Shown here: one piece after another, positions 5,783-40,698 of the stretch
How positions within the stretch are numbered: the first letter of the stretch is position 1
Layout: each line of letters opens with the position of its first letter
Origin: Hymenobacter setariae
GTDB taxonomy: Bacteria; Bacteroidota; Bacteroidia; Cytophagales; Hymenobacteraceae
DNA length: 64,000 nt
Direction: 5' to 3'
Assembly: GCF_007713685.1 (NCBI RefSeq)
Contig: NZ_VMRJ01000002.1
Coordinates: 372,001 to 436,000 of the forward strand
Made by a program: the position numbers and the translations under genes
Notes under the pieces: model-generated
Databases searched by the model: none
What the model was told of the DNA's origin: nothing
The model's input: the letters and a program-made list of their open reading frames with translations, nothing else

Positions 5783-5856
5783 AGCAAAAGCTGGGTGGGA
5801 GAAAGCGAGTTTTGTGGCTAGCAGGCGAGGCCTGAAGTAGCTACAAAACCTCACTG

Positions 5857-6009: not shown

Positions 6010-9000
6010 CTATTCCACATCAGCCGCCGCGGCTGCTCGGCCTATACGGTGCTGCTTGGCATATTCCGATGGGGTAAGACTATAGATTTTCTGGAAAGCC
6101 TTGCGGAAGTACTTGGCATCTTCGATACCTACTTCAAAGGCTATTTCCGACACGCGCATGGAGGTTTGGGCCAGTAGCTGGGCCGCGCGCTTGAGGCGCA
6201 CGTCGCGGATAAACTCCACCGCCGTTTGGCCCGTGATGCTCTTGATGCGACGGTAGAACACCGACTGGCTCATGGCCATGGCGCGGGCCAGCACCTGCAC
6301 ACTAAACTCGGCGTCGCCTAGGTGCTGCTCTACCGTATGCATGGCTTGCTCCAAGAACTCGCGGTCGGCGTCGGCTACCACTATCTCGGTGGGTTGCAGT
6401 AAGATATGGCGCTGATAGAATTCGTGCAGCTTGCGGCGGTTGCGCAGCAGCGCATCGGCCTTGGCGTGCAGTAGGGTGGGGTTGAAGGGCTTGCTTACGT
6501 AGTCGTCGGCGCCCATCCCTAGGCCCTCTAGCTCGTGGGTTTCGGCAGTGCGGGCCGTGAGCAGCAGCACCGGAATGTGGCTGGTTTTGGGGTGTTGCTT
6601 GAGGCGCTGACACAGCTCTAGGCCATCGGAGCGCGGCATCATCACATCCGAAATAATGAGGTCGGGTAGTTGGGCCAAGGCTTTTTCCCAGCCTACCAAG
6701 CCATCCTCAGCGGTTAGCACGGTGTAGTCGGCCTCAAAAAGCTGCGTGAGGTACTGGCGCACTTCGTCGTTGTCTTCTACCACTAGCAAGCGCGGCGGGC
6801 CAGTCGGTGCAGTCGTTAGGGGCAAGGCCGCAAACTCATCCTCAAGAGGTGGCTCGCTTTCGCTGGCACTCATGCCGGGGCTAGGTTCTTCTGCCTGAAT
6901 GTCTTCGGGCTGCAGGTGCTGCTGGCCAAAGGGCAGGCGCAGCTCGAAGGTGGTGCCGACGCCTTGCAGGCTGGCCACCGTGAGCTGCCCGCCGTGGCGC
7001 TGGGCAAACTGCCGGGCCAGCGACAGCCCGATGCCCGTGCCGCCCATGCGCAGCGTGTCGGTATGCGAAGCCTGATAGTAAGGGTCAAAAATGCGGTCTA
7101 GCTCGTGCGGGCTAATGCCTACGCCCGTATCCGAAACCGTGATTTTAAGGTAATTAGTAGTTAGCTGCTCGTTGGAGTATACTGCTGGGCTGCTGGCGCA
7201 GCCCACGGCCGTGGCCGTCAGCTCGACGCGGCCTCTGTCGCGGGTGTACTTAAAGGCGTTGGCGAGCAGGTTGGTCAGCACGATTTCCAGCTTGCCGCGG
7301 TCGAAGTACAGGCGCACTGGCTCGGCCGGCACGTCGAGCAGGTACGTGATGCCCCGCTCCTGAGCCTTGTGCTGAAAACTACCGTATTGCTCACCTAGGA
7401 AGCTGACGGCGTCGCCGTAGGTGGCACGCAGGGGCACGTTGCCAGTTTCGACCTTGCGGAAATCGAGCAGCTGGTTTACTAGCTCCAGCAGCTTGCGAGC
7501 CTGCCGGTGCATCAGCTCTACTTTGCTGGCTAGGTTGGCCACGGGGCCAGGGCTGCGCATTATTTCGTCCATCGGCCCCAGAATGAGGGTGAGTGGCGTG
7601 CGCAGCTCGTGGCTGATATTAGTGAAAAAGCCCAGCTTGAGATTCGTCAGCTCTTTCTCCTTCTCGGTCTGAAACTGCTCCAGAACAAGCTTGCTTTTCA
7701 GCTCTTGCTGCGACATTTCGAAGCGCCGATAGAGCATGATGCTGCCGCCTAGGGCCAGGGCGTAGAGGAGATAGGCCCAGCCTGTTTTGTACCACGGCGC
7801 CAGCACCTCAAACTGCATAGTAGCGGGCTGGGCGCTCCAGCCGCCTTCGCCGTTACTGGCTTTCACGCGCAGGGTGTAGTGGCCGGGCGGCAGGTTGGCA
7901 AAGCTGGCGGTGCGCTGGCCGGGCGCCGGGTGCACCCAGTTTTGATTGTAGCCGTCGAGCTGATACGCGTAGCGGTTTTTCTGCGGGTTGGCGTAGTTGA
8001 GGCCCACGAACTCTACCGAAAAGTCGTTTTCGCTAGGCTTTATCGTCACGGTTTGGGGCACCGATAGTGGCTGGGCCAGCAGCACGCGGCCGCCAAAGGG
8101 CTGCCCCACAGCCACCGGCTGGTTGGCAATGCGCAGGCCCGTGAGCTGCACCACCGGCGCGTAGGGGTTAGGCTGAATGGCCGACGGCTGGAAGTAGCTG
8201 ATACCATTGATGCCACCGAAGTACAGGGTGCCATCGGCACCGCGCGCAGCGGCCCCTATCTTAAAGGCATTGCTTTGCAGGCCATCGGCCACGTCGTAGC
8301 GCACGTACTGGCGGGTGCGCGGCGTGAAGCGATAGAGGCCCGTGCCGCCCACCCACAGGTTGCCCGCATCGTCGGTGAGCAGGCTCTCCACGTCGCTTTC
8401 GGGCAGCCAGCGCTGGTAGCTGCGTACCGTGTCGTGGCCTTGGGCATCGGTGGCCAGCTGGTGCAGCCCACCCCCGATGGTGCCTATCCAGAGCGTGCCC
8501 TGGCGGTCGAGCACCAGCGGCCACACGTAGTTGACGCGCAAGCCGCCCGCCGCGCCGGGCACGTAGCTGAATTGCCGGAGCAGGCGCACCGAGTCAGGCG
8601 TGACTTGCAGCTTAAGCAGGCCCGCATCGGTAGTGCTGGCCCAGAGCACGTTGCGGCGCGGGTCTAGCAGCAAGAAGGTGAAATTGCTGCTCGGCAGCCC
8701 TGCGCCGGCTTGGTAGCGGCGCAGCAACTGCCCGTCAGCACTGAAGCGCAGCAGGCCCTGGTTGAAGGTAGCCACCCACAGTGTGCCGTAGGCGTCCTCT
8801 ACAATGCGCTCGATGCTGGCATTGCGCAAGCGCTGCCCGCCCGGTAGCTCGTCGATGGTCGTAAGCTCCTCGCGACCCTGGTGGCGGGTGAGGCGCACCA
8901 GCCCGCGGCCCCGGGTGCCAAACCACAGCGTGCCAGTGCGCGCCTGGCAAATGGCCGATACATCGATGCCGCGCGTCACGCCGGCTTCGTTCTGGTTTAG

Positions 9001-10263
9001 GTAGTTGCGATAGGTTTGGCGAGCTAGGTCATAGGCGGCCACGCCATTGCGCGAGCCTAGCCAGAGCGTGTTGGCGGCTTCCTCCTTATAAACAGCGTTG
9101 ATGTAGTTGTTAGGCAGCGTGGCTTGGCCCATCAGCTGGCGCCGCAGCCGCCCAAAAGGCTTTTGGCGCAGGTCTACCCGATTGAGACCACCTGCCGAAG
9201 CGCACAGCCACATCACCTGGGTGCGGTCTTCAAAAAGCTGGTGCACCCGCTCCGAGTTGATGCTCTGCGACTCGCCATCGGTGGGTAGCAGCAAGGTAGG
9301 CGCCCCGGCGCGCAGGGGTGGCGCGGTGCCCGTGGCAGTGCCGGCCTCCCATACATAAAGCCCGTAGATGGTGCCCACCCACAGCCGGCCAAACGAGTCG
9401 AGCAGCAGCGACTGCAAGGTGGGGTAGCTGAGCGGCTGCGGGTGCGCCGTGAGTTGGCGCACAGCCCGGCGGTTAGCCGCGCTCACCCACAGCACCTGCT
9501 GGTCGAGGCCTATCCAGAGGTCGCCGCGGCGGTCGAGGTGCAGCGCCCGCACCAGCCCGGTCACGTCAGTGGGTTCGGCCACTAGGGTAGCGGCATCCGT
9601 CTGCACTAGGCACAGCCCCCGGTTGTAGGTGCCCATCCATAGGTTGCCTTCCGCATCAGCGGCTAGGCTACTCACCGAGTAAGGCGCGGTGGGCTGGCCG
9701 GCCGCGGGCTGCACCTGGCGCAAACTTGCCAGCTGGCCCTGGGTGGTGAATGTCAATTTTAACAAGCCATCGCGCAGGGTACCAATCCACAAATGGCCCT
9801 GCGGGTCAGACGCTAGCGCGGTAATGCTGCTAGTAGCCAACTGCTGTAAAAGGGGCTGGCCCGCCGGCGCAATGGCCAGGCTGGCCAGCGGCATAAGCTG
9901 GTCGGTGGCAGTGTCGTAGAAGTTGAGCCCAGCCCGCTCGGTACCCACCCACAGGCGGCCACCACTATCGGTATGAAGCACCGCGATGCGATTGCCCGCA
10001 ATGCCTTTGCGGGTGATGGGCAGGGTGTACTGCTTGAGAGTGTAGCCATCGTAGCGGTCGAGGCCACGATTAGTGCCCACCCAGATAAAGCCCGCTTTGT
10101 CTTGTGCCACGGCCATGGCATCGCTGTGCGACAGCCCCTGGTCAACGGTGAGGTGCTCGAAGCGAAACTCGCGCGGGGCCGTGTCCTGCGCCCAGGCAGG
10201 GCAGACCAGCAGCGCCAGCAGGGTTGCTAGGCAGCAAAGCAGCCGGGAAGGAATAACTAGCAT
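6010..10263 (-). CDS. Hybrid two-component system regulator (HTCS)
   Basis: A 1417-residue one-protein phosphorelay typical of Bacteroidota sugar loci. The start at 10263 is preferred over 10323 because it begins a good signal peptide (MLVIPSRLLCCLATLLALL, cleavage near WAQ). Order: periplasmic regulator-propeller repeats (~25-730, with many FIWVGTNRGLDRYD-like blades), a Y_Y_Y domain (~745-815), one membrane helix (WAYLLYALALGG), HisKA with His885 in NISHELRTPL, HATPase with NLLANAFKYT, DTGVGIS and GTGIGLSLA, a receiver domain with Asp1206 in IISDVMMP, and a C-terminal AraC-type helix-turn-helix pair. Such proteins bind an oligosaccharide in the periplasm and switch on the local locus. Its position between the leftward and rightward enzyme units suggests that it controls both. 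Confidence 0.96.
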   Translation of the reverse strand: MLVIPSRLLCCLATLLALLVCPAWAQDTAPREFRFEHLTVDQGLSHSDAMAVAQDKAGFIWVGTNRGLDRYDGYTLKQYTLPITRKGIAGNRIAVLHTDSGGRLWVGTERAGLNFYDTATDQLMPLASLAIAPAGQPLLQQLATSSITALASDPQGHLWIGTLRDGLLKLTFTTQGQLASLRQVQPAAGQPTAPYSVSSLAADAEGNLWMGTYNRGLCLVQTDAATLVAEPTDVTGLVRALHLDRRGDLWIGLDQQVLWVSAANRRAVRQLTAHPQPLSYPTLQSLLLDSFGRLWVGTIYGLYVWEAGTATGTAPPLRAGAPTLLLPTDGESQSINSERVHQLFEDRTQVMWLCASAGGLNRVDLRQKPFGRLRRQLMGQATLPNNYINAVYKEEAANTLWLGSRNGVAAYDLARQTYRNYLNQNEAGVTRGIDVSAICQARTGTLWFGTRGRGLVRLTRHQGREELTTIDELPGGQRLRNASIERIVEDAYGTLWVATFNQGLLRFSADGQLLRRYQAGAGLPSSNFTFLLLDPRRNVLWASTTDAGLLKLQVTPDSVRLLRQFSYVPGAAGGLRVNYVWPLVLDRQGTLWIGTIGGGLHQLATDAQGHDTVRSYQRWLPESDVESLLTDDAGNLWVGGTGLYRFTPRTRQYVRYDVADGLQSNAFKIGAAARGADGTLYFGGINGISYFQPSAIQPNPYAPVVQLTGLRIANQPVAVGQPFGGRVLLAQPLSVPQTVTIKPSENDFSVEFVGLNYANPQKNRYAYQLDGYNQNWVHPAPGQRTASFANLPPGHYTLRVKASNGEGGWSAQPATMQFEVLAPWYKTGWAYLLYALALGGSIMLYRRFEMSQQELKSKLVLEQFQTEKEKELTNLKLGFFTNISHELRTPLTLILGPMDEIMRSPGPVANLASKVELMHRQARKLLELVNQLLDFRKVETGNVPLRATYGDAVSFLGEQYGSFQHKAQERGITYLLDVPAEPVRLYFDRGKLEIVLTNLLANAFKYTRDRGRVELTATAVGCASSPAVYSNEQLTTNYLKITVSDTGVGISPHELDRIFDPYYQASHTDTLRMGGTGIGLSLARQFAQRHGGQLTVASLQGVGTTFELRLPFGQQHLQPEDIQAEEPSPGMSASESEPPLEDEFAALPLTTAPTGPPRLLVVEDNDEVRQYLTQLFEADYTVLTAEDGLVGWEKALAQLPDLIISDVMMPRSDGLELCQRLKQHPKTSHIPVLLLTARTAETHELEGLGMGADDYVSKPFNPTLLHAKADALLRNRRKLHEFYQRHILLQPTEIVVADADREFLEQAMHTVEQHLGDAEFSVQVLARAMAMSQSVFYRRIKSITGQTAVEFIRDVRLKRAAQLLAQTSMRVSEIAFEVGIEDAKYFRKAFQKIYSLTPSEYAKQHRIGRAAAAADVE

Positions 10264-10483
10264 CGGCAAGGGTGGGAGAAGAAGGACAGATAGCCGCGCC
10301 GCTACCCAGCTGAATAGGTGCACACTAGACTAATCTGGGGCGATGCGCCAACGGTGGCTCTGCAAGGTAGCAAGCCGGCTTGGGTTGGCGAAATGCGGCC
10401 CGCGCCCACCTAGGGCCGCTGGCCGGTCATTTTCCCCCAGCTGTTCGGCGAAAACCTCCCCCTAGGTGGGGTAGGGGCGCCGC

Positions 10484-10548: not shown

Positions 10549-11703
10549 ATGAAAAAGAATAGCTTGCTTGTTGTGCTGCTGGCGCTAGCCAGCACGGCCC
10601 AAGCCCAGCGCACGGCCTTTCTGCCCGGCCAGCCCTGGCCCGACAACAAAGGCACCCACCTCAACGCCCACGGTGCTGGTGCGCTCTATGACCAGGGCCG
10701 CTACTACCTGTTTGGCGAGCACAAAATAGCCGGCCCGAAGGGCAACAGTGCCCAAGTGGGCGTGCATTGCTACTCCTCCAAAGACCTGTACAACTGGCAG
10801 GATGAGGGTATTGCCTTCGCGGTGGCGCCCGAGGGCTCAGGCTCAGAAGTGGAGAAAGGCTGCGTGCTAGAGCGCCCCAAGGTGGTGTTCAATAAGAAGA
10901 CCCGGCAGTACGTAATGTGGTTTCACCTCGAGCTGAAGGGCCAAGGCTACGCCGCAGCCCGCACCGCCGTGGCCGTGAGCAACAAGCCCACCGGGCCCTA
11001 CAAGTATGTGCGCTCGTACCGGCCCGGCGCCGGCCAGTGGCCCCTAGGGTACAAGGAAGAGTGGAAGCAGCCCGCCCCCGGTGAGGCCAGCCTGAAATGG
11101 TGGACGCCCGAGTGGCGCACGGCCGTAACGCAAGGCTTGTTTGTGCGGCGTGACTTCACGCCCGGCCAAATGGCTCGCGACATGACCATTTTCGTCGACG
11201 ACGATGGCAAGGCCTATAATATTCACTCGTCGGAGGAAAACCTGACCTTGCACGTGGCCGAGCTCACCGACGACTATCAGGGCTTTACGGGCAAGTGGAA
11301 CACAATTGCGCCGGCTGGGCACAACGAGGCGCCCGCCATCTGCAAGCGCGGCGGCAAGTACTACCTCCTCACGTCGGGCTGCACAGGCTGGGCCCCCAAT
11401 GCGGCACGCTCGTTCGTGGCCTCGTCTATCTGGGGCCCGTGGCAGCAGCTCGATAACCCCGCCACCGGCCCCGACGCCGACTCGACCTACCACTCCCAGA
11501 GCACTTACCTGCTGCCGGTGGCAGGTAAGAAAGACGCCTTCATCTTTATGGCCGACCGCTGGACCCCCAAGAACCCCATCGACGGCGGCTACATCTGGCT
11601 GCCGCTCCGCTTCGAAGGCGACCAGCCCCGCCTGCGCTGGGCCGACCGCTGGGCTCTCAGCGCCTTTGACCAGCCCCAGCCCAAAGCTGTGGTTGCTCCC
11701 TAG
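10549..11703 (+). CDS. GH43 enzyme resembling subfamily 24 exo-beta-1,3-galactanases
   Basis: A 384-residue secreted protein (signal peptide ends near STAQAQ). The usual GH43 N-terminal catalytic Asp is replaced by an NAHGAGALYDQG segment, followed by YYLFGEHK, both reminiscent of GH43_24. Family knowledge says subfamily 24 uses two Glu and a Gln instead of the usual Asp base. Matching candidates are visible: Glu108 (VLERPKVVFN), Glu260 (HNEAPAICKR) and Gln317 (YHSQSTYLL). The expected role is release of galactose from the beta-1,3-galactan backbone of arabinogalactan, bypassing side chains. It reads rightward, divergent from the hybrid regulator, and stands alone before susC. Assignment to GH43 is firm; the subfamily and galactanase activity are inference. 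Confidence 0.85.
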   Translation: MKKNSLLVVLLALASTAQAQRTAFLPGQPWPDNKGTHLNAHGAGALYDQGRYYLFGEHKIAGPKGNSAQVGVHCYSSKDLYNWQDEGIAFAVAPEGSGSEVEKGCVLERPKVVFNKKTRQYVMWFHLELKGQGYAAARTAVAVSNKPTGPYKYVRSYRPGAGQWPLGYKEEWKQPAPGEASLKWWTPEWRTAVTQGLFVRRDFTPGQMARDMTIFVDDDGKAYNIHSSEENLTLHVAELTDDYQGFTGKWNTIAPAGHNEAPAICKRGGKYYLLTSGCTGWAPNAARSFVASSIWGPWQQLDNPATGPDADSTYHSQSTYLLPVAGKKDAFIFMADRWTPKNPIDGGYIWLPLRFEGDQPRLRWADRWALSAFDQPQPKAVVAP

Positions 11704-12015: not shown

Positions 12016-15000
12016 ATGCAGGCAAAGTCTATTCTCCTGTGCGGAGCCTTGCTACCTCTGACGGTGGCTGCCGCTCCGCTTTCAAGGGCAGCCGGCTCCG
12101 ATTGGGGGCTGCGCTCCGCGACCCAGCCGCTGGCTGATATCACCATCACGGGCACGGTGCTCGACGAAAAAGGCGATGGTATGCCCGGGGCCACCGTGGT
12201 GCTAAAGGGCACCACCGTCGGGGCAAACACCGATGCCAATGGCAAGTTTTCGCTTCGCATTCCCGACGGCACGGTCTCGCCTACGCTCGTTATCTCGTCG
12301 GTGGGCTACGTCAAGCAAGAGCTGGCTGTGGGCGACCGCACCACGTTTTCCATCAAGCTGGCTCCCAATACTCAGGACCTTAATGAGGTGGTAGTGGTGG
12401 GCTACGGCGCGCAGAAGCGCTCCGACATCACGGGCTCGGTAGTGTCGGTGCCCCAGGACCGCTTAGAAAAAATTCCGGTGTCGAACGTGGCCCAGGCGCT
12501 GCAAGGCGCGGTAGCGGGCGTCAACATCACTAATACGTCAAGCGTGCCGGGCAGCCAGCCCAATATTCAAATCCGGGGCGTGCGCTCGATTACGGCCAGC
12601 ACCAACCCCTACCTGATTGTGGACGGGGTACCATTTCCGGGCAACCTCAACGACATCAATCCCAACGACATCGGCTCGATTGAGATTCTGAAGGATGCCA
12701 GCTCGACGGCCATCTATGGCACGCGCGGCTCCAACGGGGTAATCTTGGTGACGACCAAGCGCGGCAAAACCGGCAAGCCGCAGATTCGCTACAACGGCTA
12801 TGCCGGGCCCGAGTACATGGTGCAAAAGCTGCACCCGCTCGACGGGCCAGCGTTCTCGGCCAAATGGCAGGAGTTTACTCGGCAGCGCGGCATCAACCTC
12901 ACGCCCGTACCTAACACCGGCGAGCTGGACAACTACAACAACGGCCGCACGGTGGACTGGATGGACTTGATTAAGCAGCAAGGCTTTATTCAAGACCACA
13001 ACGCCTCTATTTCGGGTGGCACCGACAATGTGAAGTACTTTGTGTCGGGCGATTACTTCAAGCAAAAGGGCATTATCAAGGGCTACCAGTTTCAGCGCAT
13101 CAGCCTGCGTTCGAACATCGACGCGACCCTTACGCCCTGGCTGCGGGTGGGCACGTCGGCGTTCTATTCCACTTCCAACGACGACGGTGGGCGCGCCGAC
13201 CTTAGCCTAGCCCAGGTACTGAGCCCCTACGGCTCGGTGTACAACGCCGACGGCACCTACACCATTTACCCGCAGCCCCCCGAGCAGCTGGTGAAAAATG
13301 CCCTGTTGGGCCTGACCACCCAGCGCCTCGACCGCATCAACCAGCTCACTGGCACCGGCTACGCCGAGGTGGAGCCAACCTTCTTGAGCGGCCTCAAGTA
13401 CCGCCTGAACGCGACCTACTCGAACCGGCCCGGCCGGTACGCTAGCTACACTGGCCGCGCGTTTGGTGACTTGCGCGGCACGGCCCAGCTCATCAACGAT
13501 GAGCGCCAGAACTACACGATAGAAAACCTGCTGTTCTACAACAAGGATATCGACAAGCATCACTTCGATATCACGGCCCTGTACAGCGCTCAGCAAAACA
13601 GCTACTTCACGACCACGGAGAATGCGTTTGGGTTTATCAACGACCAGATTGCTTTTAATAGCCTAGGGGCGGGCAGCATCACGCCCACGCTCAGCTCGTA
13701 TAGCGAGCGCCGGGCGCTGGTGTCGCAAATGGCACGGGTCAACTACAACTACGATAGCCGCTACCTGTTCACGGCCACGGCCCGGCGCGACGGCTCGTCG
13801 GTGTTCGGCGTCAATGCCAGCAAGTACGCTACGTTCCCCTCCGTAGCCGTGGGCTGGAACGTCGGCAACGAGGCATTCTTGAAAAATAATGCAGCGGTGA
13901 GCGTGCTCAAGCTACGCTTTTCGTATGGCACCACCGGCAACGAGGGCATCAACCCCTACGGCACTATCACGGGCAGCGCCCTGCTGCAATATGCCTACGG
14001 CGGCGTGACGGCCGTGGGCCTGCGGGCCAACAATATCGGCAACAGCAACCTGAAGTGGGAGCAAACCACGAGCGCCAACTACGCCGTTGATTTTGGCTTC
14101 CTCAAAAACCGCATCACGGGTACGGTAGAGTACTACGATGCTAAAACCAGCGACTTGCTGCTGAATCGCCAGATTCCGATTGTGAGCGGCTACGGTACGA
14201 TTCTGGACAATATTGGCTCGGTGAGCAATAAGGGTCTCGAGGTAAGCCTGACCACCGCCAACGTGCAGCTGCCGAATTTCACTTGGGAGACTACCCTCAA
14301 CTTTTCGGGCAATCGCAACCGGCTGCTGGAGCTAGGCTACACCTCAACCGATGACATTGGCAACCGCCTCTTCTTGAACCGGCCGCTGGGCGCTGTATAC
14401 GACTACGTGAAAACCGGCGTGTGGCAGGTAGGCGAAGACGCCAGCAGCCTCGACCCCGGCGCCAAGCCCGGCGACCTGAAGTTTGCCGACCTCAACGGCG
14501 ACGGCAAAATCACGACCCTCGACCGCCAGTACCTAGGCTCGTCGCTGCCCAGTTGGCAGGGCGGCATCACCAACACCTTTACGTATAAGGGGTTGAGCTT
14601 GCGCGTGTTCATCCAAACGGCGCAGGGCGTGCTCAAGAGCAACAACAACCTGAATTTCGTGGACCTAGGTGGCCGCTTCAATACCCCGGAGGAAGTAGGC
14701 TACTGGACCGCCGCCAACCAAAGCCAGGACCGCCCTAGCCTGAGCTACATCAACCCGCGCGGCTACGGCTACCCCAGCAATGCCAGCTACACCCGCCTCA
14801 AGGACGTAACGCTCAACTACACCTTCCCGGCCGCCCTCCTCGACAGGCTCAAGCTCGGCACGCTGTCGGTGTACGTGAGTGCGCGTAACCTCTACACCTG
14901 GACCAAGTGGGTAGGCTGGGACCCCGAGCAGAACTATACTCTCGGCAACGGCTCGGGCAACATCGACAACCCGATTAGCCTGCTCAGCTCCTCCACAAGC

Positions 15001-15102
15001 TTCAGCCCGACTACTAGCGTCAACAGCTCGACGGCCGGCTCCAACCCCAACTTCCCGCAGGTGCGCACCTTCGTGTTTGGCCTCAACCTAGGCTTGCGCT
15101 AA
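12016..15102 (+). CDS. SusC/RagA-type TonB-linked outer membrane transporter
   Basis: A 1028-residue TonB-dependent transporter. After a signal sequence it has a carboxypeptidase-D-like domain (~40-115, ITGTVLDEKGDGMPGATVVLKGT and related), a TonB-box region (NEVVVVGYGAQKR, ~121-133), a plug domain (~135-240, with the SusC hallmarks YLIVDGVPF and IEILKDASSTAIYGTRGSNGVILVTTK), then a long beta barrel ending in the terminal strand FVFGLNLGLR. With the SusD partner directly downstream (32-base gap) it forms the glycan import complex of the locus, driven by TonB. Both are expected to be switched on by the hybrid regulator. The missing C-terminal sorting domain is normal for this family. Confidence 0.97.
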   Translation: MQAKSILLCGALLPLTVAAAPLSRAAGSDWGLRSATQPLADITITGTVLDEKGDGMPGATVVLKGTTVGANTDANGKFSLRIPDGTVSPTLVISSVGYVKQELAVGDRTTFSIKLAPNTQDLNEVVVVGYGAQKRSDITGSVVSVPQDRLEKIPVSNVAQALQGAVAGVNITNTSSVPGSQPNIQIRGVRSITASTNPYLIVDGVPFPGNLNDINPNDIGSIEILKDASSTAIYGTRGSNGVILVTTKRGKTGKPQIRYNGYAGPEYMVQKLHPLDGPAFSAKWQEFTRQRGINLTPVPNTGELDNYNNGRTVDWMDLIKQQGFIQDHNASISGGTDNVKYFVSGDYFKQKGIIKGYQFQRISLRSNIDATLTPWLRVGTSAFYSTSNDDGGRADLSLAQVLSPYGSVYNADGTYTIYPQPPEQLVKNALLGLTTQRLDRINQLTGTGYAEVEPTFLSGLKYRLNATYSNRPGRYASYTGRAFGDLRGTAQLINDERQNYTIENLLFYNKDIDKHHFDITALYSAQQNSYFTTTENAFGFINDQIAFNSLGAGSITPTLSSYSERRALVSQMARVNYNYDSRYLFTATARRDGSSVFGVNASKYATFPSVAVGWNVGNEAFLKNNAAVSVLKLRFSYGTTGNEGINPYGTITGSALLQYAYGGVTAVGLRANNIGNSNLKWEQTTSANYAVDFGFLKNRITGTVEYYDAKTSDLLLNRQIPIVSGYGTILDNIGSVSNKGLEVSLTTANVQLPNFTWETTLNFSGNRNRLLELGYTSTDDIGNRLFLNRPLGAVYDYVKTGVWQVGEDASSLDPGAKPGDLKFADLNGDGKITTLDRQYLGSSLPSWQGGITNTFTYKGLSLRVFIQTAQGVLKSNNNLNFVDLGGRFNTPEEVGYWTAANQSQDRPSLSYINPRGYGYPSNASYTRLKDVTLNYTFPAALLDRLKLGTLSVYVSARNLYTWTKWVGWDPEQNYTLGNGSGNIDNPISLLSSSTSFSPTTSVNSSTAGSNPNFPQVRTFVFGLNLGLR

Positions 15103-15134
15103 TCCTTCTCCCACCCGATTTATCTCTTTGCTAT

Positions 15135-16712
15135 ATGAAACGCTACGCGTTAGGATTGATAACGCTGCTGGGCACTGCCCAGCTCGTTAGCTCTTGCAAG
15201 AAAGATTACTTGGCCGAAACGCCCCCGTCGCTCTACACGCCCCAAACCGTGCTGGTAGACTCGCTGGGCTTTGAGGCCGCGATGGCTGGCTTGCAGAGTG
15301 TGGTGCGCGAGCAGTACACCCGCTCCGACGAGCAGGGCCTGCTCGGCATGATGCAGGAAGGCACCGATGTGGCCATTCCGGGCCAAGTGCAGGGCGCCGA
15401 AATACCTTATTACAACTATAGCCTGCTCAATGCGCAAGACCAGGCGGCTAGCGTGATGTGGAGCTGGGCCTACCGCACCATCAACAACTGCAACCAGATT
15501 ATTGCGGGGGCGGCGACGGCCCCGGCCACATTGCGGCAGGGCTACAAAAACCGCATTAGCGCCGAGGCTCGCTTCTACCGCGCCTACGCCTACGATTTTT
15601 TGGCTACGCTCTGGGGCGATGTGCCGCTGGTAGATTCCCCCGTAACTACGCCGCGCAACGACTTTACGCGGGCCCCAATAGCAACAGTCAACGATTTTAT
15701 CGTTAATGACTTGAATACGGCTATCCCAAGCTTATTCTTAGCCACTAAAGCCGCTTCTGGGCGCATTACGCAGGGCGCGGCTCAGCAATTGCTTGGGCAG
15801 GTGTACTTGCGCATGAACAAGCCTGACTTGGCCCAGGTGCCGCTGCAAGCCCTCATCAACAGTGGGCAATACAAGCTGATTTCGGCGCGCTACGGGGTGC
15901 GGTCGACCCAGCCGGGCGACTATTTCGCCGATATGTTTGTGGTCGGCAACCAGCGCCGCAACCAGGGCAACACCGAAGTTATTTGGGGGGTAGAGCAGCA
16001 ACTGCTCGTGCCCGGTGCTACTACCAGCGCCCAGCAGCGCCGCATGTGGGTACCAGCCTACTACAATATCAAAGGCATGACGCTAGCCGACTCGCTCGGG
16101 GGGCGGGGCCTAGGTCGCCTGCGCCTCAGCAACTGGGTAGACTACCGTCTTTATTCGGCGCAGGACATGCGCAACTCGAAATACAACCTCAAGCGTCGTT
16201 TTTATTACAACGATGCCTCCATGCCGGCCACGTTTGGCAAGCGCGTGACAGGCCTGGCTGGGTCAGATACCATCTATAATATCACGCCCTACACCACGAA
16301 GTGGAACCAGTTTGACCCCACTGATACCTTTGGCTTTGGCACCATCAAGGATATTACCATGATGCGCTTAGGCGAAACCTACCTGCTGCTGGCTGAGGCC
16401 CAAGTGCAGCAAGGCAACACAGCCGGGGCCGCCGCCAGCATCAACGTGCTGCGCACCCGGGCGCAGGCGCCGCAGGTAACGGCTGGTGAAATGACGCTCA
16501 ACTTCATCCTTGACGAGCGCGCTCGCGAGTTGATAGGTGAGGAGCAGCGTCGCATTACGCTGGTACGCACCGGCACGCTTCTAGAGCGCACCCTGCGCCT
16601 CAACGGCGCCTCGGTGACTGGCCTGACTAAGGAGAAAGCGCTGCTGCCCATTCCGCAATCAACAATTGACCTAAACGTAGGGGCTACCCTAACGCAAAAC
16701 CCCGGATACTAG
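15135..16712 (+). CDS. SusD/RagB-type glycan-binding lipoprotein
   Basis: A 525-residue surface lipoprotein. The signal ends in a lipobox (QLVSSC, Cys21) followed by KKDYLAETP, a typical SusD start. SusD hallmarks are present: repeated tetratricopeptide-like helices, AEARFYRAYAYDFLATLWGDVPL, DITMMRLGETYLLLAEAQ and FILDERARELIGEEQRR. It caps the SusC barrel, binds the oligosaccharide and opens for import. It directly follows susC. Its stop lies inside a hairpin at 16702-16731, which probably damps transcription into the downstream enzymes. Confidence 0.97.
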   Translation: MKRYALGLITLLGTAQLVSSCKKDYLAETPPSLYTPQTVLVDSLGFEAAMAGLQSVVREQYTRSDEQGLLGMMQEGTDVAIPGQVQGAEIPYYNYSLLNAQDQAASVMWSWAYRTINNCNQIIAGAATAPATLRQGYKNRISAEARFYRAYAYDFLATLWGDVPLVDSPVTTPRNDFTRAPIATVNDFIVNDLNTAIPSLFLATKAASGRITQGAAQQLLGQVYLRMNKPDLAQVPLQALINSGQYKLISARYGVRSTQPGDYFADMFVVGNQRRNQGNTEVIWGVEQQLLVPGATTSAQQRRMWVPAYYNIKGMTLADSLGGRGLGRLRLSNWVDYRLYSAQDMRNSKYNLKRRFYYNDASMPATFGKRVTGLAGSDTIYNITPYTTKWNQFDPTDTFGFGTIKDITMMRLGETYLLLAEAQVQQGNTAGAAASINVLRTRAQAPQVTAGEMTLNFILDERARELIGEEQRRITLVRTGTLLERTLRLNGASVTGLTKEKALLPIPQSTIDLNVGATLTQNPGY

Positions 16713-24864: not shown

Positions 24865-26922
24865 ATGAAACGTCCCCTTCGCCTACTATTCCTGCTCCTT
24901 AGCGCCCTAGGTGCCGTGGCCGCGCCGGCGGTCGCCAAACCCCTAAAAGCCGAGCCGTACAGCGCCTACCTCTTTGCCTACTTCACCGGCAACGACATCA
25001 AGGAAGAGGCTATCCGCTTTGCGCTCAGCACCGATGGCTACCACTACCGTGCTCTAAATGGCAACCAGCCGGTCGTTAGCTCGGCCACCATCAGCGAGAC
25101 GGGCGGCGTGCGCGACCCGCACATCGTGCGCGGGGCCGATGGCAAAACCTTCTACATGGTGGCCACCGACATGGTATCAGCCAAGGGCTGGAGTTCGAAC
25201 CGCGGCATGGTGCTGCTCAAGTCGAAGGACCTAGTAAACTGGACGCACAGCGCCATCAATTTTCAGAAGCGCTACGCTGGCCAGGAAAACCTCAAGCGCG
25301 TGTGGGCGCCGCAAACCATCTACGACCCCCAAGCCAAGAAGTACCTGGTGTACTTCTCGTTGCAACACGGCTCAGAGCCTGATAAAATCTACTACGCCTA
25401 CGCCAACAAGGACTTTACCGACCTAGAGGGCGAGCCCAAGCAGCTGTTTTTCTCGCCCACCAACGGCTCGTGCATCGACGGCGACATCGTGGCCAAAGAC
25501 GGCATGTACTACCTGTTTTTCAAGACGGAAGGTAACGGCAACGGCATCAAAATCGCCGTGTCGGATAAGCTGACCAGTGGCTACGTGCTGCGCGACCCCT
25601 ACGTGCAGCAAACCAAAGACCCCGTGGAGGGCGCCGGCACTTTCAAGCTCAATAACTCGAACGACTACATCCTGATGTACGACCTCTACACCAAGGGCAA
25701 GTACCAGTTTACCCGCACCAGCGACCTACAGCATTTCGCGGTAGTAGACAAGGATATCAGCATGGACTTTCACCCGCGGCACGGCACCGTAATGCCGATC
25801 ACAGCTGCTGAGGCGGCGCGCCTCACCAAGCGCTGGGGCAGTGGCGGCAACCTCGGGCTTGCTCCAACTAAGAAGGCTGATGTGCTGGCGCTCCTCACCA
25901 AAGTAAACGACCACTGGCAGGCCACGCACACGCCCCAGGTGCGCTCGTTTTGGGATGAGGCCGCCTACCAGACTGGCAACATGGCGGCCTTTGCCGTGAC
26001 CAAAAACAAGAAGTACCGCCATTATGCCGAGGACTGGGCCGTGCACAACAAGTGGCAGGGCGCCACCTCGACCGATCGCGACGATTGGAAATACAATTAC
26101 GGCGAAACGCCTGACCACGTGTTGTTTGGCGACTGGCAGATTTGCTTCCAGACGTACGCCGACCTCTACAAGCTCAAGCGCGAGCCCATCCGCATCGCCC
26201 GGGCCCGCGAGGTGATGGAATATGAAATGAGCACTCAGCGCAACGACTACTGGTGGTGGGCCGACGGCCTCTACATGGTGATGCCTGTGATGACCAAGCT
26301 CTACAACATCACCAAAAACCCGCAGTACCTCGACAAGCTGCACCAATATTTCGGCTACGCCAACAGCATCATGTACGACGCCGAAACCGGCCTCTACTAC
26401 CGCGACGCCAAGTACGTGTACCCGCAGCACAAGTCGGCCAACGGCCAGAAGGACTTTTGGGCGCGCGGCGACGGCTGGGTATTCGCTGGCCTGGCCAAAG
26501 TGCTGGCCGACCTGCCCGCCACCGACCCGCACCGCGCCGAGTACCTCACCAAATACCTAGGGCTGGCCACCGCCCTTAAAAAGGCCCAGCAGCCCGAGGG
26601 CTACTGGACGCGCAGCTTGCTCGACCCCGCCCACGCTCCCGGCCCCGAAACCAGCGGCACCGCTTTTAACACCTACGCCTACTTGTGGGGCATCAACAAC
26701 GGCGTGCTCGACCGCAACGAGTACCTGCCCACTGCCCAGCGCGGCTGGCAGTACCTCACGGCTACCGCCGTGCAGCCCGATGGCACCGTGGGCTACGTGC
26801 AGCCCATTGGCGAGAAGGCCATTCCGGGCCAGGTAGTTGACAAGAACTCGACCTCCAACTTCGGGGTCGGGGCGTTCCTGCTGGCTGCCAGTGAAATGTA
26901 TCACTTCACCGCTAAAAAATAA
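24865..26922 (+). CDS. Fusion of GH43-like propeller and GH105 hydrolase
   Basis: A 685-residue secreted protein (signal peptide to about residue 24, AVAKP) with two enzyme domains in one open frame. Residues ~30-335 form a GH43-like propeller with Asp84 (GGVRDPHIVRG), Asp205 (SCIDGDIV) and Glu255 (PVEGAGTFKL). Residues ~345-685 form a GH105 barrel with the pair in LFGDWQICFQTYADLY and WWWADGLYMVMP, then FWARGDGWVFAGL and the family C-terminus GVGAFLLAASEMY. The first removes a neutral side sugar, the second the unsaturated uronic acid left by a lyase (family knowledge). A TTG-started GH51 follows after only four bases, so the two are tightly coupled. Confidence 0.92.
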   Translation: MKRPLRLLFLLLSALGAVAAPAVAKPLKAEPYSAYLFAYFTGNDIKEEAIRFALSTDGYHYRALNGNQPVVSSATISETGGVRDPHIVRGADGKTFYMVATDMVSAKGWSSNRGMVLLKSKDLVNWTHSAINFQKRYAGQENLKRVWAPQTIYDPQAKKYLVYFSLQHGSEPDKIYYAYANKDFTDLEGEPKQLFFSPTNGSCIDGDIVAKDGMYYLFFKTEGNGNGIKIAVSDKLTSGYVLRDPYVQQTKDPVEGAGTFKLNNSNDYILMYDLYTKGKYQFTRTSDLQHFAVVDKDISMDFHPRHGTVMPITAAEAARLTKRWGSGGNLGLAPTKKADVLALLTKVNDHWQATHTPQVRSFWDEAAYQTGNMAAFAVTKNKKYRHYAEDWAVHNKWQGATSTDRDDWKYNYGETPDHVLFGDWQICFQTYADLYKLKREPIRIARAREVMEYEMSTQRNDYWWWADGLYMVMPVMTKLYNITKNPQYLDKLHQYFGYANSIMYDAETGLYYRDAKYVYPQHKSANGQKDFWARGDGWVFAGLAKVLADLPATDPHRAEYLTKYLGLATALKKAQQPEGYWTRSLLDPAHAPGPETSGTAFNTYAYLWGINNGVLDRNEYLPTAQRGWQYLTATAVQPDGTVGYVQPIGEKAIPGQVVDKNSTSNFGVGAFLLAASEMYHFTAKK

Positions 26923-36651: not shown

Positions 36652-37323
36652 ATGAGGACTTCTCTTATTGCCAGCATATTACTTGCTGCTGGCTGCTTGG
36701 CTGGGCACCCTAGCCAGGCGCAGCAAGCGCCCATTGCGCCCCTGGCGCCGGCAACTCCAGTAGTAGCCCCACCTAGGTCAGGCTTAGAAGTTGGGTCTCA
36801 AGCGAAGCAGCCGGCTACTTCGGCGCCCATGGCCACCACGCCGCCCATGGCCACCACGCCGCCCCAGCGCCGGCCCACTACTTCAGAGCCAGTAATCATT
36901 CTGAACGGACGCTACCTCATGGGAATGAATGCCCTAGGTGCTATAAATCCGCAGCAAATAGATAGAATCGAAATTTATAGGCTAGACAGTGGCCCCATGC
37001 AATGGCGCACTTTAGCTGAGCCCGGTATTATGAGCATAACGATGAAAGCCAAGCCCAGGCTTAAGTTGAAAGCGAGGTCGCTGACGGCCATCAAGCGCGC
37101 GCTAGGATTGCGTGGCCCAGTCAGGTTTGATTTTAATGGTGCTCCTATTCAAGATGAGTCGCTGCAGATAGCTACTAGTGAAATCGCGGGCCTTGATGTA
37201 ACTCAGGCTACCCCAGGTACCGCCGATAAGGCCGTCGTTAATATCCGCTCGGTGCCCTACAAGCCGGCGCCGAATCACTACCCGCCCGGCACCATCATGA
37301 TTCGCGGCCTAGCGCAACAGTAA
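36652..37323 (+). CDS. Small secreted protein with TonB-plug-like segment
   Basis: A 223-residue protein I cannot assign to a named family. It has a signal peptide (to about residue 23, SQAQQ), a Pro/Ala/Thr-rich linker (24-80) and a folded C-terminal part. The stretch PVIILNGRYLMGMNALGAINPQQIDRIEIYR, read in pieces, resembles the plug-domain strand of SusC-type receptors (a naming strand ending in DG or NG, then DIxxIEIxK). A second similar unit may begin at VRFDFNGAPIQDESL and lead to IAGLDV. The linker includes MATTPP twice, encoded by a perfect 18-base tandem duplication at 36826-36861. It lies 15 bases upstream of the propeller-GH16 gene, so the two are probably co-transcribed. A role in partner contact at the outer membrane is only a guess. 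Confidence 0.75.
   Translation: MRTSLIASILLAAGCLAGHPSQAQQAPIAPLAPATPVVAPPRSGLEVGSQAKQPATSAPMATTPPMATTPPQRRPTTSEPVIILNGRYLMGMNALGAINPQQIDRIEIYRLDSGPMQWRTLAEPGIMSITMKAKPRLKLKARSLTAIKRALGLRGPVRFDFNGAPIQDESLQIATSEIAGLDVTQATPGTADKAVVNIRSVPYKPAPNHYPPGTIMIRGLAQQ
36826..36861 (+). repeat. Perfect 18-base tandem duplication
   Basis: Two identical 18-base units (36826-36843 and 36844-36861) inside the linker of the small plug-like protein; each encodes six residues. A slippage-prone site that could vary linker length between strains. Confidence 0.9.
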
Positions 37324-37338
37324 TTCTTAGCCTTAATA

Positions 37339-39474
37339 ATGTCTATAAAGCTCCTTTCACAGTTTTTGCTGCTCACGCTGCTCATTACCACCATAGGCGC
37401 CTACGCCCAAACGCCTGTGGGCCTAGGTTGGGCCAAAAACAACGTGAATGGCGCAATTTTTCGCAAGAACTCGGTGGTGAGCCAGGGCCAAAATCAGTAT
37501 GTGGCCTACTACGACTCGGCAGGCTACGTGACCCTAGGTAAGCGCCGCCTTCCCAATGGCCCGTGGCAGGTGCAGCGTACGCCCTACCAGGGCAATGTGA
37601 AGGACGCGCACAACGTCATCAGCCTCATGGCCGATGGCGCGGGCTACCTGCACCTGAGCTTTGACCACCACAACAATCCGCTGCACTACTGCCGCAGCAT
37701 CGCGCCCGGCGTGCTCACGATGGGCGCGCTGGAGCCCATGACCGGCCAGCAAGAGCAGAAAGTGAGCTACCCCGAGTTTCACCGCTATCCCAATGGCGAC
37801 TTGCTCTTTATGTACCGCGACGGCGGCTCGGGCAACGGCAACCTCGTGCTGAATCGCTACGACCAAAAAACTCGAAGATGGACGCGCCTGCACGACGTGC
37901 TCATCGACGGCGAGGGCCAGCGCAATGCCTACTGGCAGGCCTGCATCGACCCTAGGGGCACCATCCACGTATCGTGGGTGTGGCGCGAAAGCCCCAACGT
38001 GGCCTCCAACCACGACATGGCCTACGCCCGCTCCGTGGATGGCGGCCGCACCTGGCAGAAGAGTACCGGCGAAGCCTACGCGCTACCCATCACGGCGGGC
38101 TCGGCCGAGTACGCCGCCCGCATCCCGCAAAACTCAGAGCTCATCAACCAAACCACTATTACGACCGATGCGGCGGGCGCGCCCTACATCGCCAGCTACT
38201 GGCGGCCCCAGGGCACACAGGTGCCGCAGTATCAGCTTATCTATCTCAAAGACAAGCAGTGGCGGACTGCTCAAATTAGCCAGCGCACCACGCCCTTTAG
38301 CCTGAGCGGGGTGGGCACGAAGAAAATCCCGATTTCGCGCCCGCAACTGCTGGTAGCTACCCAAAAGGGTCGCACGGCCGCCTACTTACTCTTCCGTGAC
38401 GCCGAGCGCCAAGACCGGGCCTCGGTGTTGCACTGCGCCGACCTAGGCAAAGGCGCTTGGGCTGCCGCCGACCTCACTGCCACCACCGTCGGCAACTGGG
38501 AGCCCAGCTATGACACCGAGCGCTGGAAAAAGGAGCAGGTACTGAGCCTCTTCGTGCAGCGCACCGGCCAGGGCGATGGCGAAACCCTCGAAAACCTGCC
38601 CGCCCAGCCCGTGTATGTGTTGGAATGGCAGCCCGGCCAACCCGCACGGCCGGCCACCCTAGGTGCCCTTACAGTGCCAGCAGGTACGCAAGGTCAGTCA
38701 GTGCCAGCTTCTTACCAGGGCTGGAAATTGGTATGGGCCGACGAGTTCAACCAAAAAGGCCGGCCCGACCCAGCGAATTGGCAGTTTGAAACCGGCTTTG
38801 TGCGCAACCACGAGCTGCAGTGGTACCAGCCCGAAAACGCCCGCTGCGAAAAGGGCCTGCTCGTTATCGAAGCCAAAAAAGATAGTCGCCCTAATCCCAC
38901 TTACCAGCCCGGCAGCACCGATTGGAAAGATAGTCGCCCATCTATCGGCTATACCTCGGCTAGCCTCCATACTAGCGGCCGGCACCAGTGGCAATACGGC
39001 CGCTTCGAGATGCGCGGCCGCATCGATGCGCGCGCTGGTCTGTGGCCCGCTTTCTGGACCCTAGGCGTGGCCAAGCCCTGGCCCAGCAATGGCGAAATCG
39101 ACATCATGGAGTACTACCAAGGCAAGATATTAGCCAACGTGGCCAGCGGCACCGATAAGCCCTACACCGCCAAGTGGCACTCCGAAACTAAGCCCGTGGC
39201 CAGTTTCGCCGACCCCGATTGGGCCAAGAAGTTTCATGTGTGGCGCATGGACTGGGATGCCACGGCCATCCGCCTCTATGTCGATGACCTGCTGCTAAAC
39301 GAGACGCTCCTCACCCAAACCGTGAACCAAGACGGTACCAGCTTTAACCCCATGATGCAGCCGCACTACCTACTGCTCAACCTGGCCCTAGGGGGCGATA
39401 ATGGCGGCGAACTTGCTGATGCTACCCTGCCCAGCCGCTACGAAATCGACTACGTGCGCGTGTACCAGCAGTAG
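37339..39474 (+). CDS. BNR_4 seven-bladed propeller fused to GH16
   Basis: A 711-residue secreted protein (signal to about residue 23, GAYAQ). Residues ~25-440 form a BNR_4-type propeller with the conserved segments DAHNVISLMADGAGYLHLSFD, HHNNPLHYCRS and YPEFHRYPNGDLLFMYRDG. In this superfamily are rhamnose-glucuronate lyases or alpha-rhamnosidases acting on arabinogalactan (PL42/GH145) and ulvan lyases (PL24/25), per family knowledge. Residues ~455-711 are a GH16 jelly roll (WKLVWADEFN, NHELQWYQPENA) with the catalytic triple Glu586, Asp588 and Glu591 in GEIDIMEYY. GH16 of this motif class cuts beta-1,3-glucan or beta-1,3-galactan internally. A single protein that both removes acidic caps and cuts a backbone is unusual. 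Which propeller activity applies is not decided by sequence. Confidence 0.87.
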   Translation: MSIKLLSQFLLLTLLITTIGAYAQTPVGLGWAKNNVNGAIFRKNSVVSQGQNQYVAYYDSAGYVTLGKRRLPNGPWQVQRTPYQGNVKDAHNVISLMADGAGYLHLSFDHHNNPLHYCRSIAPGVLTMGALEPMTGQQEQKVSYPEFHRYPNGDLLFMYRDGGSGNGNLVLNRYDQKTRRWTRLHDVLIDGEGQRNAYWQACIDPRGTIHVSWVWRESPNVASNHDMAYARSVDGGRTWQKSTGEAYALPITAGSAEYAARIPQNSELINQTTITTDAAGAPYIASYWRPQGTQVPQYQLIYLKDKQWRTAQISQRTTPFSLSGVGTKKIPISRPQLLVATQKGRTAAYLLFRDAERQDRASVLHCADLGKGAWAAADLTATTVGNWEPSYDTERWKKEQVLSLFVQRTGQGDGETLENLPAQPVYVLEWQPGQPARPATLGALTVPAGTQGQSVPASYQGWKLVWADEFNQKGRPDPANWQFETGFVRNHELQWYQPENARCEKGLLVIEAKKDSRPNPTYQPGSTDWKDSRPSIGYTSASLHTSGRHQWQYGRFEMRGRIDARAGLWPAFWTLGVAKPWPSNGEIDIMEYYQGKILANVASGTDKPYTAKWHSETKPVASFADPDWAKKFHVWRMDWDATAIRLYVDDLLLNETLLTQTVNQDGTSFNPMMQPHYLLLNLALGGDNGGELADATLPSRYEIDYVRVYQQ

Positions 39475-39550: not shown

Positions 39551-39627
39551 TACCCCGTCTGCCGGGCCGGCGTAACTTGGCTCCCCGCCGCCGTGCAGCC
39601 ATAAGGTCGGCGTTGCGTCTTCTTCTC

Positions 39628-40698
39628 ATGCCCACCCGTCGTCATTTTCTTACTGGTTCGCTCACCGGCTTAGCCTTGCTTGCTATGCGTCAGCCACTTG
39701 CCGCGGCTGCGGCCCGCACCTATACTAACCCTGTGCTGGCCGGCAATTTTCCGGACCCCTTCGTGTTGAAGCACGGCAAGCGCTACTACGCCTTCGGTAC
39801 CACTGGGCGTGGGCGCACCGCCGATGGACGCATTTTCACGCTCTTGCAGTCGGAAAATCTAGTAGATTGGCGGCCCCTAGGTGGGGCGCTTACGCCCCCG
39901 GCTGGTAGCGAGGAATTTGATTTTTGGGCGCCTGAGGTGGTCGAGCACGAGGGCACTTTCTACATGTATTACTCGCGGGGCGGCGGTGCCATTGGGGCTA
40001 CCGTAGGCCACCAGCTGCACGTGGCTACCAGCTCTAAGCCCGAAGGCCCCTACACCGAGATAGCCGCGCTGCCGGTGCCCGACAGCCAGTTTACCATCGA
40101 CGCCCACGCCTTTAAGGACACCGACGGGCAGTGGTATCTGTTCTACGCCCGCGATTTTACGGATACGAACGACGGCTATTACCCCGGCACCGGCCTAGTG
40201 GTAGACCGCCTCACCAGCATGACCCAGCTCGCCAACGCGCCCCGCACCGTGCTGCGCGCCCGCCACAGCTGGACCATCTTTGAGGCCAACCGCCTAATGC
40301 CGCTCTACGACAACCGCACCTTTGCACAGTGGCACACGATGGAAGGCCCCTTCGTGCGCCGCCACGATGGCAAGTACTACTGCTTTTTCAGCGGCGCCAA
40401 TTTCCTTACCGACCGCTACGGGGTCGATTACTGCGTGGCCGAGCACATCATGGGCCCCTACGTCGACTCGGGCTCCGATGCCGGGGCGCGGGTGCTGCAC
40501 TCGGTGCCCGGCCACGTGCGCGGCCCCGGCCACCACAGCCATACTATGAGCCCCGACGGCCGCACCGAGTACCTCGTGTACCACGCTTGGAACGCCGCCA
40601 TGACCGCCCGCGAGCTCTGCATCGACCCACTGGCCTGGACTGCTGATGGCCCTAGGTGCCTTGGGCCTACCTACACCCCGCAGCCCCGGCCACGGTAG
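39628..40698 (+). CDS. GH43 family glycosidase with twin-arginine-like signal
   Basis: A 356-residue enzyme. The ATG at 39628 begins PTRRHFLTGSLTGLALLA, a good twin-arginine motif; the in-frame option at 39577 adds Arg-rich residues in front and is less likely. Canonical GH43 residues: Asp43 (NFPDPFVLKHGKRYYAFG), Asp158 (FTIDAHAFKDTDG) and Glu239 (TMEGPFVRRHDGKYYCFFS), with GPGHHSHT as a late blade. Likely an exo-acting arabinofuranosidase or related enzyme; the substrate is unknown. The last rightward gene of the sugar locus. Its 3' end forms the left arm of a strong terminator shared with the convergent beta-helix gene. Confidence 0.9.
   Translation: MPTRRHFLTGSLTGLALLAMRQPLAAAAARTYTNPVLAGNFPDPFVLKHGKRYYAFGTTGRGRTADGRIFTLLQSENLVDWRPLGGALTPPAGSEEFDFWAPEVVEHEGTFYMYYSRGGGAIGATVGHQLHVATSSKPEGPYTEIAALPVPDSQFTIDAHAFKDTDGQWYLFYARDFTDTNDGYYPGTGLVVDRLTSMTQLANAPRTVLRARHSWTIFEANRLMPLYDNRTFAQWHTMEGPFVRRHDGKYYCFFSGANFLTDRYGVDYCVAEHIMGPYVDSGSDAGARVLHSVPGHVRGPGHHSHTMSPDGRTEYLVYHAWNAAMTARELCIDPLAWTADGPRCLGPTYTPQPRPR

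Follow-up and report, generated by a model that had tools for sequence, protein, structure and literature searches.

A Hymenobacter gene joins a predicted PL42 lyase propeller to a GH16 domain in a putative arabinogalactan locus

Within a 64,000-nucleotide stretch of Hymenobacter setariae DNA (the window; contig NZ_VMRJ01000002.1), one gene raises the question of what a single polypeptide would do with both a seven-bladed propeller and a GH16 domain, and on which polymer the two would act. The open reading frame begins with ATG, encodes 711 residues and contains no internal stops. Along it Pfam places BNR_4 at residues 52-315 (E 5.6e-97, 324.8 bits against a cut-off of 27.3) and Glyco_hydro_16 at residues 514-706 (E 7.2e-14, 52.1 bits against a cut-off of 22), and a third family, SKN1_KRE6_Sbg1, exceeds its own cut-off at residues 459-576 (36.4 bits against 30), covering the start of the GH16 domain. 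An earlier note, made from the letters of the sequence, had described one polypeptide with both modules and a complete GH16 domain carrying Glu586, Asp588 and Glu591; the single frame bears this out, and the three residues stand at exactly those positions. The modules themselves (PL42 and GH16) are known and it is their combination that is new, as no report of a PL42-GH16 protein was found in the titles and abstracts of the open-licence literature searched. The gene is organized as follows:

37339..39474, + strand: fused gene for a PL42 (formerly GH145) propeller, a linker and a GH16 domain, 711 aa (Pfam, phmmer, AlphaFold2 model, VIA-align)
37339..37407, + strand: signal peptide of ordinary type, residues 1-23 (ending ...TIGAYA, followed by Q), read by eye
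37411..38634, + strand: seven-bladed propeller, about residues 25-432 (Pfam, phmmer, VIA Z 60.0)
38635..38715, + strand: Pro/Ala/Thr/Gly-rich linker, about residues 433-459 (model and alignment)
38716..39471, + strand: GH16 catalytic domain, about residues 460-711 (Pfam, VIA-align, alignment)
39094..39111, + strand: GH16 catalytic motif E586-I-D588-I-M-E591, its triad present in 82/82 relatives of at least 50% identity

Across 23 fused sequences the linker measures 24-52 aa and is rich in Pro, Ala, Gly, Thr, Ser and Gln. The AlphaFold2 model of the fused protein (mean pLDDT 90.7) is weakest near the N-terminus and within the linker (residues 442-451 under 50 pLDDT), and its pTM of 0.65 leaves the placement of the propeller relative to the GH16 domain loose.

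We consider it fairly probable, judging from the sequence, that the product is an exported and probably periplasmic two-enzyme protein, in which a PL42 lyase and a GH16 endo-beta-1,3-galactanase would serve the breakdown of plant type II arabinogalactan; we infer both activities, the galactan as GH16 substrate and the periplasmic location. Its neighbours in the window include:

24865..26922, + strand: GH43-like domain (N-terminal) with a GH88/105 unsaturated glucuronyl hydrolase (C-terminal; 5noa, E 3.3e-164 over residues 336-681)
4661..5854, - strand: second GH88/105 protein (Pfam, Glyco_hydro_88)
10549..11703, + strand: GH43_24-type exo-beta-1,3-galactanase (6eug, E 5.1e-130; also 3vsf, 7bys and 5flw)
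39577..40698, + strand: GH43 protein, 102 nt downstream of the fused gene (Pfam)
12016..16712, + strand: SusC/SusD pair (Pfam)
6010..10323, - strand: hybrid two-component sensor-regulator (Pfam)
36652..37323, + strand: small secreted protein whose gene stops 15 nt short of the fused one; homologues adjoin the gene in Hymenobacter

The locus further holds several GH43 genes, GH127, GH31, two GH51-type genes, GH2, two DUF2264 and DUF4861. The protein at 24865-26922 is itself a further fusion, the halves of which are separate genes in L089. An M60 peptidase at 30785-33070 (+), which might act on a glycosylated protein core, is shared with L056 only, among the relative loci listed.

Membership of GH16 follows from the Pfam score, the ExDxxE motif and a jelly-roll fold: in VIA-align, residues 454-711 of the model superimpose on GH16 structures with Z 25.6-29.9 among the matches listed (rmsd 1.9-2.7, top match 6t2n). 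The domain is of the subfamily-3 type, as assigned by the three-Trp motif W569/W573/W581 rather than by a subfamily model. In a set of 82 relatives, from which those below 50% identity had been removed, W569 was kept in 82/82 and W573 and W581 each in 81/82; three tryptophans in finger 3 mark GH16 subfamily 3 (PMC7419316, section 13, where the motif is described with no spacing). With the laminarinases and O-glycanases of that subfamily (6t2n, 2vy0, 6jh5, 4crq) the domain shares the jelly-roll, the ExDxxE and the three tryptophans (PMC7419316), and it differs from them in its predicted action on galactan and its fusion to a presumptive lyase. Because the nearest solved folds, the mucin O-glycanase 6t2n and several laminarinases or beta-1,3(4)-glucanases, are tied within Z 1, structure leaves the choice between Glc and Gal undecided, and the fold match was discarded as a judge of the GH16 substrate.

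The best, albeit indirect, support for a beta-1,3-galactan substrate comes from fusions in which GH16 relatives are joined to GH43_24-type exo-beta-1,3-galactanase domains, found in five Bacteroidota loci (GH16 first in L085, L088, L096 and L135, GH43 first in L087; L085 and L088 being two strains of a single species and the Pfam scan of the fusions made without L085). The GH43 domains of these fusions are similar to the window protein at 10549-11703, GH43_24 having been assigned by sequence matches and not by a subfamily model. The fusions thus point to a putative endo-beta-1,3-galactanase, resembling FvEn3GAL, a fungal GH16 endo-beta-1,3-galactanase, in predicted activity, by description and not by sequence (PMC4052742). 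They also provide a handle on the specificity of this GH16 clade, in which no characterised member was found.

The neighbourhoods of related genes were compared over flanks of up to 10 kb (shorter at contig ends), with L085, a near copy of L088, left out of the counts. Outside Hymenobacter, this GH16 lies near the propeller (within about 10 kb) in 16 of 28 loci and in 2 of the 13 of the class sample, and GH105 in 15 of 28 and, in the class sample alone, in 5 of 13, against 2 of 32 GH16 loci that have no propeller, a difference in favour of the lyase-galactanase reading; the 28 include loci found by the full fused query, which favours GH16 presence, and the 13 were found by the propeller family alone. 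A beta-1,3-glucanase (laminarinase), in a locus handling more than one polymer, would agree with the solved neighbours, most of which are laminarinases or beta-1,3(4)-glucanases, and with the lack of galactan context around most GH16 relatives that occur without a propeller. Galactan is further opposed by the match to SKN1_KRE6_Sbg1, which takes its name from beta-glucan synthesis, by the low share of class-sample propeller loci with this GH16 nearby (the 2 of 13 above), and by the content of the 32 GH16 loci without propeller, where GH43_24 was present in 3 and GH105 in 2. Propeller-less relatives at 64-72% identity mostly had no arabinogalactan neighbours, and no neighbour theme was shared among the 25 of 127 Pfam families listed for nine of these loci (the scan covered 68 of 80 proteins, omitting 8 of the 9 GH16 proteins and 4 other neighbours). 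We nevertheless hold a laminarinase to be unlikely, for the same GH16 clade is joined to GH43_24-type domains in the five loci above, 12 of the 28 non-Hymenobacter loci have GH43_24 close to the propeller (though just 2 of the 13 from the class sample do), and GH3, GH5, GH17, GH30, GH55, GH64 and GH81 had no match among the 28 window proteins scanned.

If the GH16 domain is taken as the putative galactanase, the role of the propeller remains to be placed beside it. The rhamnose-glucuronate type proposed in the earlier note is upheld by the 56% identity with BT3686 (226 residues out of 400 aligned) and by the model, in which residues 19-434 match GH145/PL42 structures with Z 55.8-60.0 (375-395 residues, rmsd 1.2-1.6; top match 5mum, Z 60.0, residues 22-430) and FoRham1 (7esk) with Z 42.6; in this fold comparison, of the kind the note had suggested, the PL24 and PL25 ulvan lyases reached Z of about 27-33. 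Two active sites are possible in BT3686-type propellers: a hydrolase site on the posterior side, with His48, and a lyase site on the anterior side, built from a His/Tyr/Arg set (PMC8406133). The corresponding positions in the window protein are:

37483..37485, + strand: Gln49, replacing the posterior rhamnosidase histidine, His48 of BT3686; the site is lost (alignments)
37609..37611, + strand: His91, equivalent to FoRham1 His85 and BT3686 His90, lyase base-acid (71/71 aligned propellers)
37669..37671, + strand: His111, equivalent to FoRham1 His105 (71/71 aligned propellers)
37768..37770, + strand: Tyr144, equivalent to FoRham1 Tyr150 and BT3686 Tyr143 (70/71 aligned propellers)
37816..37818, + strand: Arg160, equivalent to FoRham1 Arg166, carboxylate neutraliser (71/71 aligned propellers)
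38338..38340, + strand: Arg334, equivalent to BT3686 Arg333 (68/71 aligned propellers; 2 gaps, 1 Ala)

The His/Arg/Tyr set, whose absence from the pocket would have told against the proposed lyase, is therefore present. Among the 13 mapped anterior residues of FoRham1, 11 are identical (His85, His105, Tyr150 and Arg166 included); the two exceptions, which count against the assignment, are Tyr26, replaced by Phe41, and Arg331, which aligns to Gln336, with Arg334, matching BT3686 Arg333, standing two residues away.

The closest solved relatives, BT3686, BACCELL_00856 and BACINT_00347, have the same fold (the Z 55.8-60.0 given above) at 54-55% identity in structural alignments. The lyase residues of BT3686 also occur in the window propeller, and Gln at the posterior position is shared with BACINT_00347 and BACCELL_00856; the solved PL42/GH145 chains (414-432 aa) carry no second enzyme domain, whereas the window propeller is joined to GH16. 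A further PL42/former GH145 relative, BACPLE_00338, is known from the literature. FoRham1, the founding PL42 enzyme (from Fusarium), after which GH145 was renamed PL42 (PMC8377490), shares the fold and the anterior residues but is a fungal, single-domain protein at 24-27% identity. The PL24 and PL25 ulvan lyases share the propeller fold and the His/Tyr/Arg chemistry (PMC8406133) but act endo on ulvan (PMC8377490), are 13-18% identical in structural alignments and give just short phmmer matches.

Seven anterior residues (His91, His111, Arg160, Ser164, Tyr198, Arg216 and Asn270) are invariant in 71/71 distinct propellers, whereas residue 49 takes eleven identities among the same 71 (H 11, Q 9, L 2 and R 1 in the 23 fused sequences) and changes between His and not-His at least ten times on the tree, gaps being scored as not-His. 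Conservation thus falls on the lyase site, the rhamnosidase site being labile, which fits the published view of the lyase as the older, conserved activity of the fold (PMC8406133). On these residues the propeller is predicted to be an L-Rha-alpha-1,4-GlcA lyase and not a rhamnosidase.

Endo-enzyme fusion is typical of binding modules, and the same general fold includes lectins (PLL lectins, Z about 26), which would speak for a non-catalytic propeller tethering GH16 to uronate-capped arabinogalactan; yet His91, His111, Tyr144, Arg160 and Arg334 are kept in 23/23 fused proteins, and the propeller, unlike a helper module, survives alone where GH16 seems lost, so that we regard such a tether as very unlikely. 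A GH145-type alpha-L-rhamnosidase (hydrolase), for which the identity to BT3686, the 648 bits scored with the rhamnosidase model NF052497 (NCBIfam, BT3686 equivalog; below its 700-bit cut-off) and the posterior His kept in 11/23 fused relatives might be cited, was rejected as scarcely credible on account of Gln49 in place of the catalytic His48, and His-less relatives were inactive as rhamnosidases on gum arabic AGP (PMC8406133; PMC8377490).

In the preferred reading of a lyase joined to a galactanase, the anterior pocket would act by beta-elimination on the terminal L-Rha-alpha-1,4-GlcA bond, with His91 as base-acid, His111 and Tyr144 assisting and Arg160 neutralising the uronate carboxylate, and the posterior rhamnosidase site would be inactive through the exchange of His for Gln. 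This step would free rhamnose and leave a 4,5-unsaturated glucuronate, to be taken off by the GH88/105 enzymes of the locus (the GH88/105 half of 24865-26922 likely acts on the lyase product), while the GH16 domain would serve as backbone cutter of arabinogalactan. The two GH105 domains that the earlier note had linked to the propeller are indeed encoded, one at 4661-5854 (-) and the other as the C-terminal part of 24865-26922 (+); its idea that the propeller removes the acidic cap does not stand, as the lyase would take the rhamnose and GH105 the acidic sugar.

Published relatives bear on this scheme in both directions. BACCELL_00856 and BACPLE_00338, which have no posterior His, did not act as rhamnosidases on gum arabic AGP but freed rhamnose from wine AGP, the product of BACPLE_00338 on the latter being unsaturated and GH105-sensitive (PMC8406133). 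According to the same source, the lyase site of the posterior-His-less enzymes leaves the simple Rha-GlcA cap found in gum arabic AGP uncleaved, which we count against the explanation by a lyase acting on arabinogalactan; FoRham1 is active on gum arabic (PMC8377490).

The propeller was found (E <= 1e-40) in 40 of 120 Hymenobacter genomes, 22 of which carry the intact fusion, 2 (G495 and G481) a fusion broken in the linker/GH16 region and 16 an unfused propeller; the 21 intact fusions besides that of the window are 72-96% identical to it over the propeller. As the uninterrupted architecture recurs in 22/40 propeller-bearing genomes of the genus, it is no accident of assembly. Beyond the genus, propellers occurred in 13/395 genomes of the class sample, 21/390 of the order sample (two candidates scored per genome) and 21/395 of the phylum sample, which partly overlaps the others. 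The search for the same architecture elsewhere, another suggestion of the earlier note, yielded no PL42-GH16 fusion outside Hymenobacter in the sampled match tables, which held neither such a match nor a frame of two-domain length save in G380 (open frame 1060, a GH2-PL42 fusion of 1055 aa). The fusion is hence conserved but narrow. In the loci and genomes sampled beyond Hymenobacter, GH16 and propeller occupy separate genes, often adjoining ones, in agreement with the expectation that two proteins normally do both jobs. The GH2-PL42 fusion (L138:7638-10805, 1055 aa), from another family of the class, represents a second kind of enzyme joined to the propeller. In Hymenobacter qilianensis JCM 19763 the PL42-GH16 fusion (L063) resides on a 182-kb plasmid (NZ_CP060785.1), with GH105, GH2 and SusC/SusD matches around it.

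On a tree of 67 of the 71 propellers (L080, cut by a contig end, and L145, L146 and L148, below 40% identity, were dropped), at least eight changes between fused and unfused states were required, and again eight with the broken ones scored as fused. A single clade of the 23 fused and 2 broken propellers was rejected (p-AU 2.8e-5), which places unfused Hymenobacter genes among fused ones. Those nested among fused sequences include some with linker-like tails (L151, L153 and L155); L158 and L160-L163, on several earlier branches, end directly after the propeller, and L164 has another tail. This pattern suggests that fusion took place once or a few times and that GH16 was then lost repeatedly; the fusion would be inessential, since GH16 was seemingly lost in several lineages. 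The fused L165 groups with the unfused L149, L160 and L161, and there may have been more than one independent fusion event. In G370 (L149) the stop codon of the propeller gene is followed, after 12 further codons in frame, by a separate GH16 gene with a signal of its own, which ends in a lipobox-like site (ASGC); fused proteins have no second signal and the linker in its place. In two other Hymenobacter genomes (L156 and L158) the GH16 precedes the propeller.

The fused protein carries a single signal peptide of ordinary type and lacks a sorting tail, and is thus probably exported to the periplasm. By eye, no lipobox followed the N-terminal hydrophobic stretch in any of 23 distinct fused sequences, and Pfam gave no sorting domain in the window protein, which ends with its GH16 domain; Por_Secre_tail was matched by two other window proteins (one below cut-off), so the sorting route is probably present in the genome. 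A periplasmic endo-enzyme would receive its material after import, in contrast to B. cellulosilyticus, for which a surface endo-galactanase is reported (PMC8406133). Lipobox-like sites were read by eye in about 5 of 54 separate GH16 sequences (L149, L086, L105, L109 and perhaps L137), the remainder having ordinary signals or unclear starts. The single tandem relative L149 hints that the fusion might have moved a surface lipoprotein inward. More speculatively, and with considerable doubt on our part, Hymenobacter may have welded a lyase and an endo-hydrolase for one proteoglycan in the periplasm, the GH16 losing its own signal (of lipoprotein type in L149) and a potentially surface, shared backbone-cutter becoming private; the fused relatives with a posterior His (11/23) would then carry three sites (rhamnosidase, lyase and galactanase).

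DUF2264 occurs near PL42 in 18/28 non-Hymenobacter loci and in 0/32 GH16 loci without propeller, and in L136 (10077-12395) it is fused to GH88/105 in a protein of 772 aa adjoining the PL42 gene; its link to PL42 loci and this fusion suggest a role in uronate removal.

Between 36400 and 41000, scans for promoters and terminators returned counts about equal to those of shuffled sequence. The small protein upstream of the fused gene (36652-37323) has no Pfam match and is one of 20 distinct homologues in the Hymenobacter loci (e.g., L056:7272-7922, L072:7301-7954). Its model gave matches of Z <=4.0, 10 of the 17 listed being TonB-dependent transporters, matched partially, a faint hint of resemblance to their plug; a plug-like protein standing on its own next to a glycan locus would be unusual. 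Its reading frame contains an exact tandem repeat at 36824-36864 (18-bp unit, 2.3 copies).
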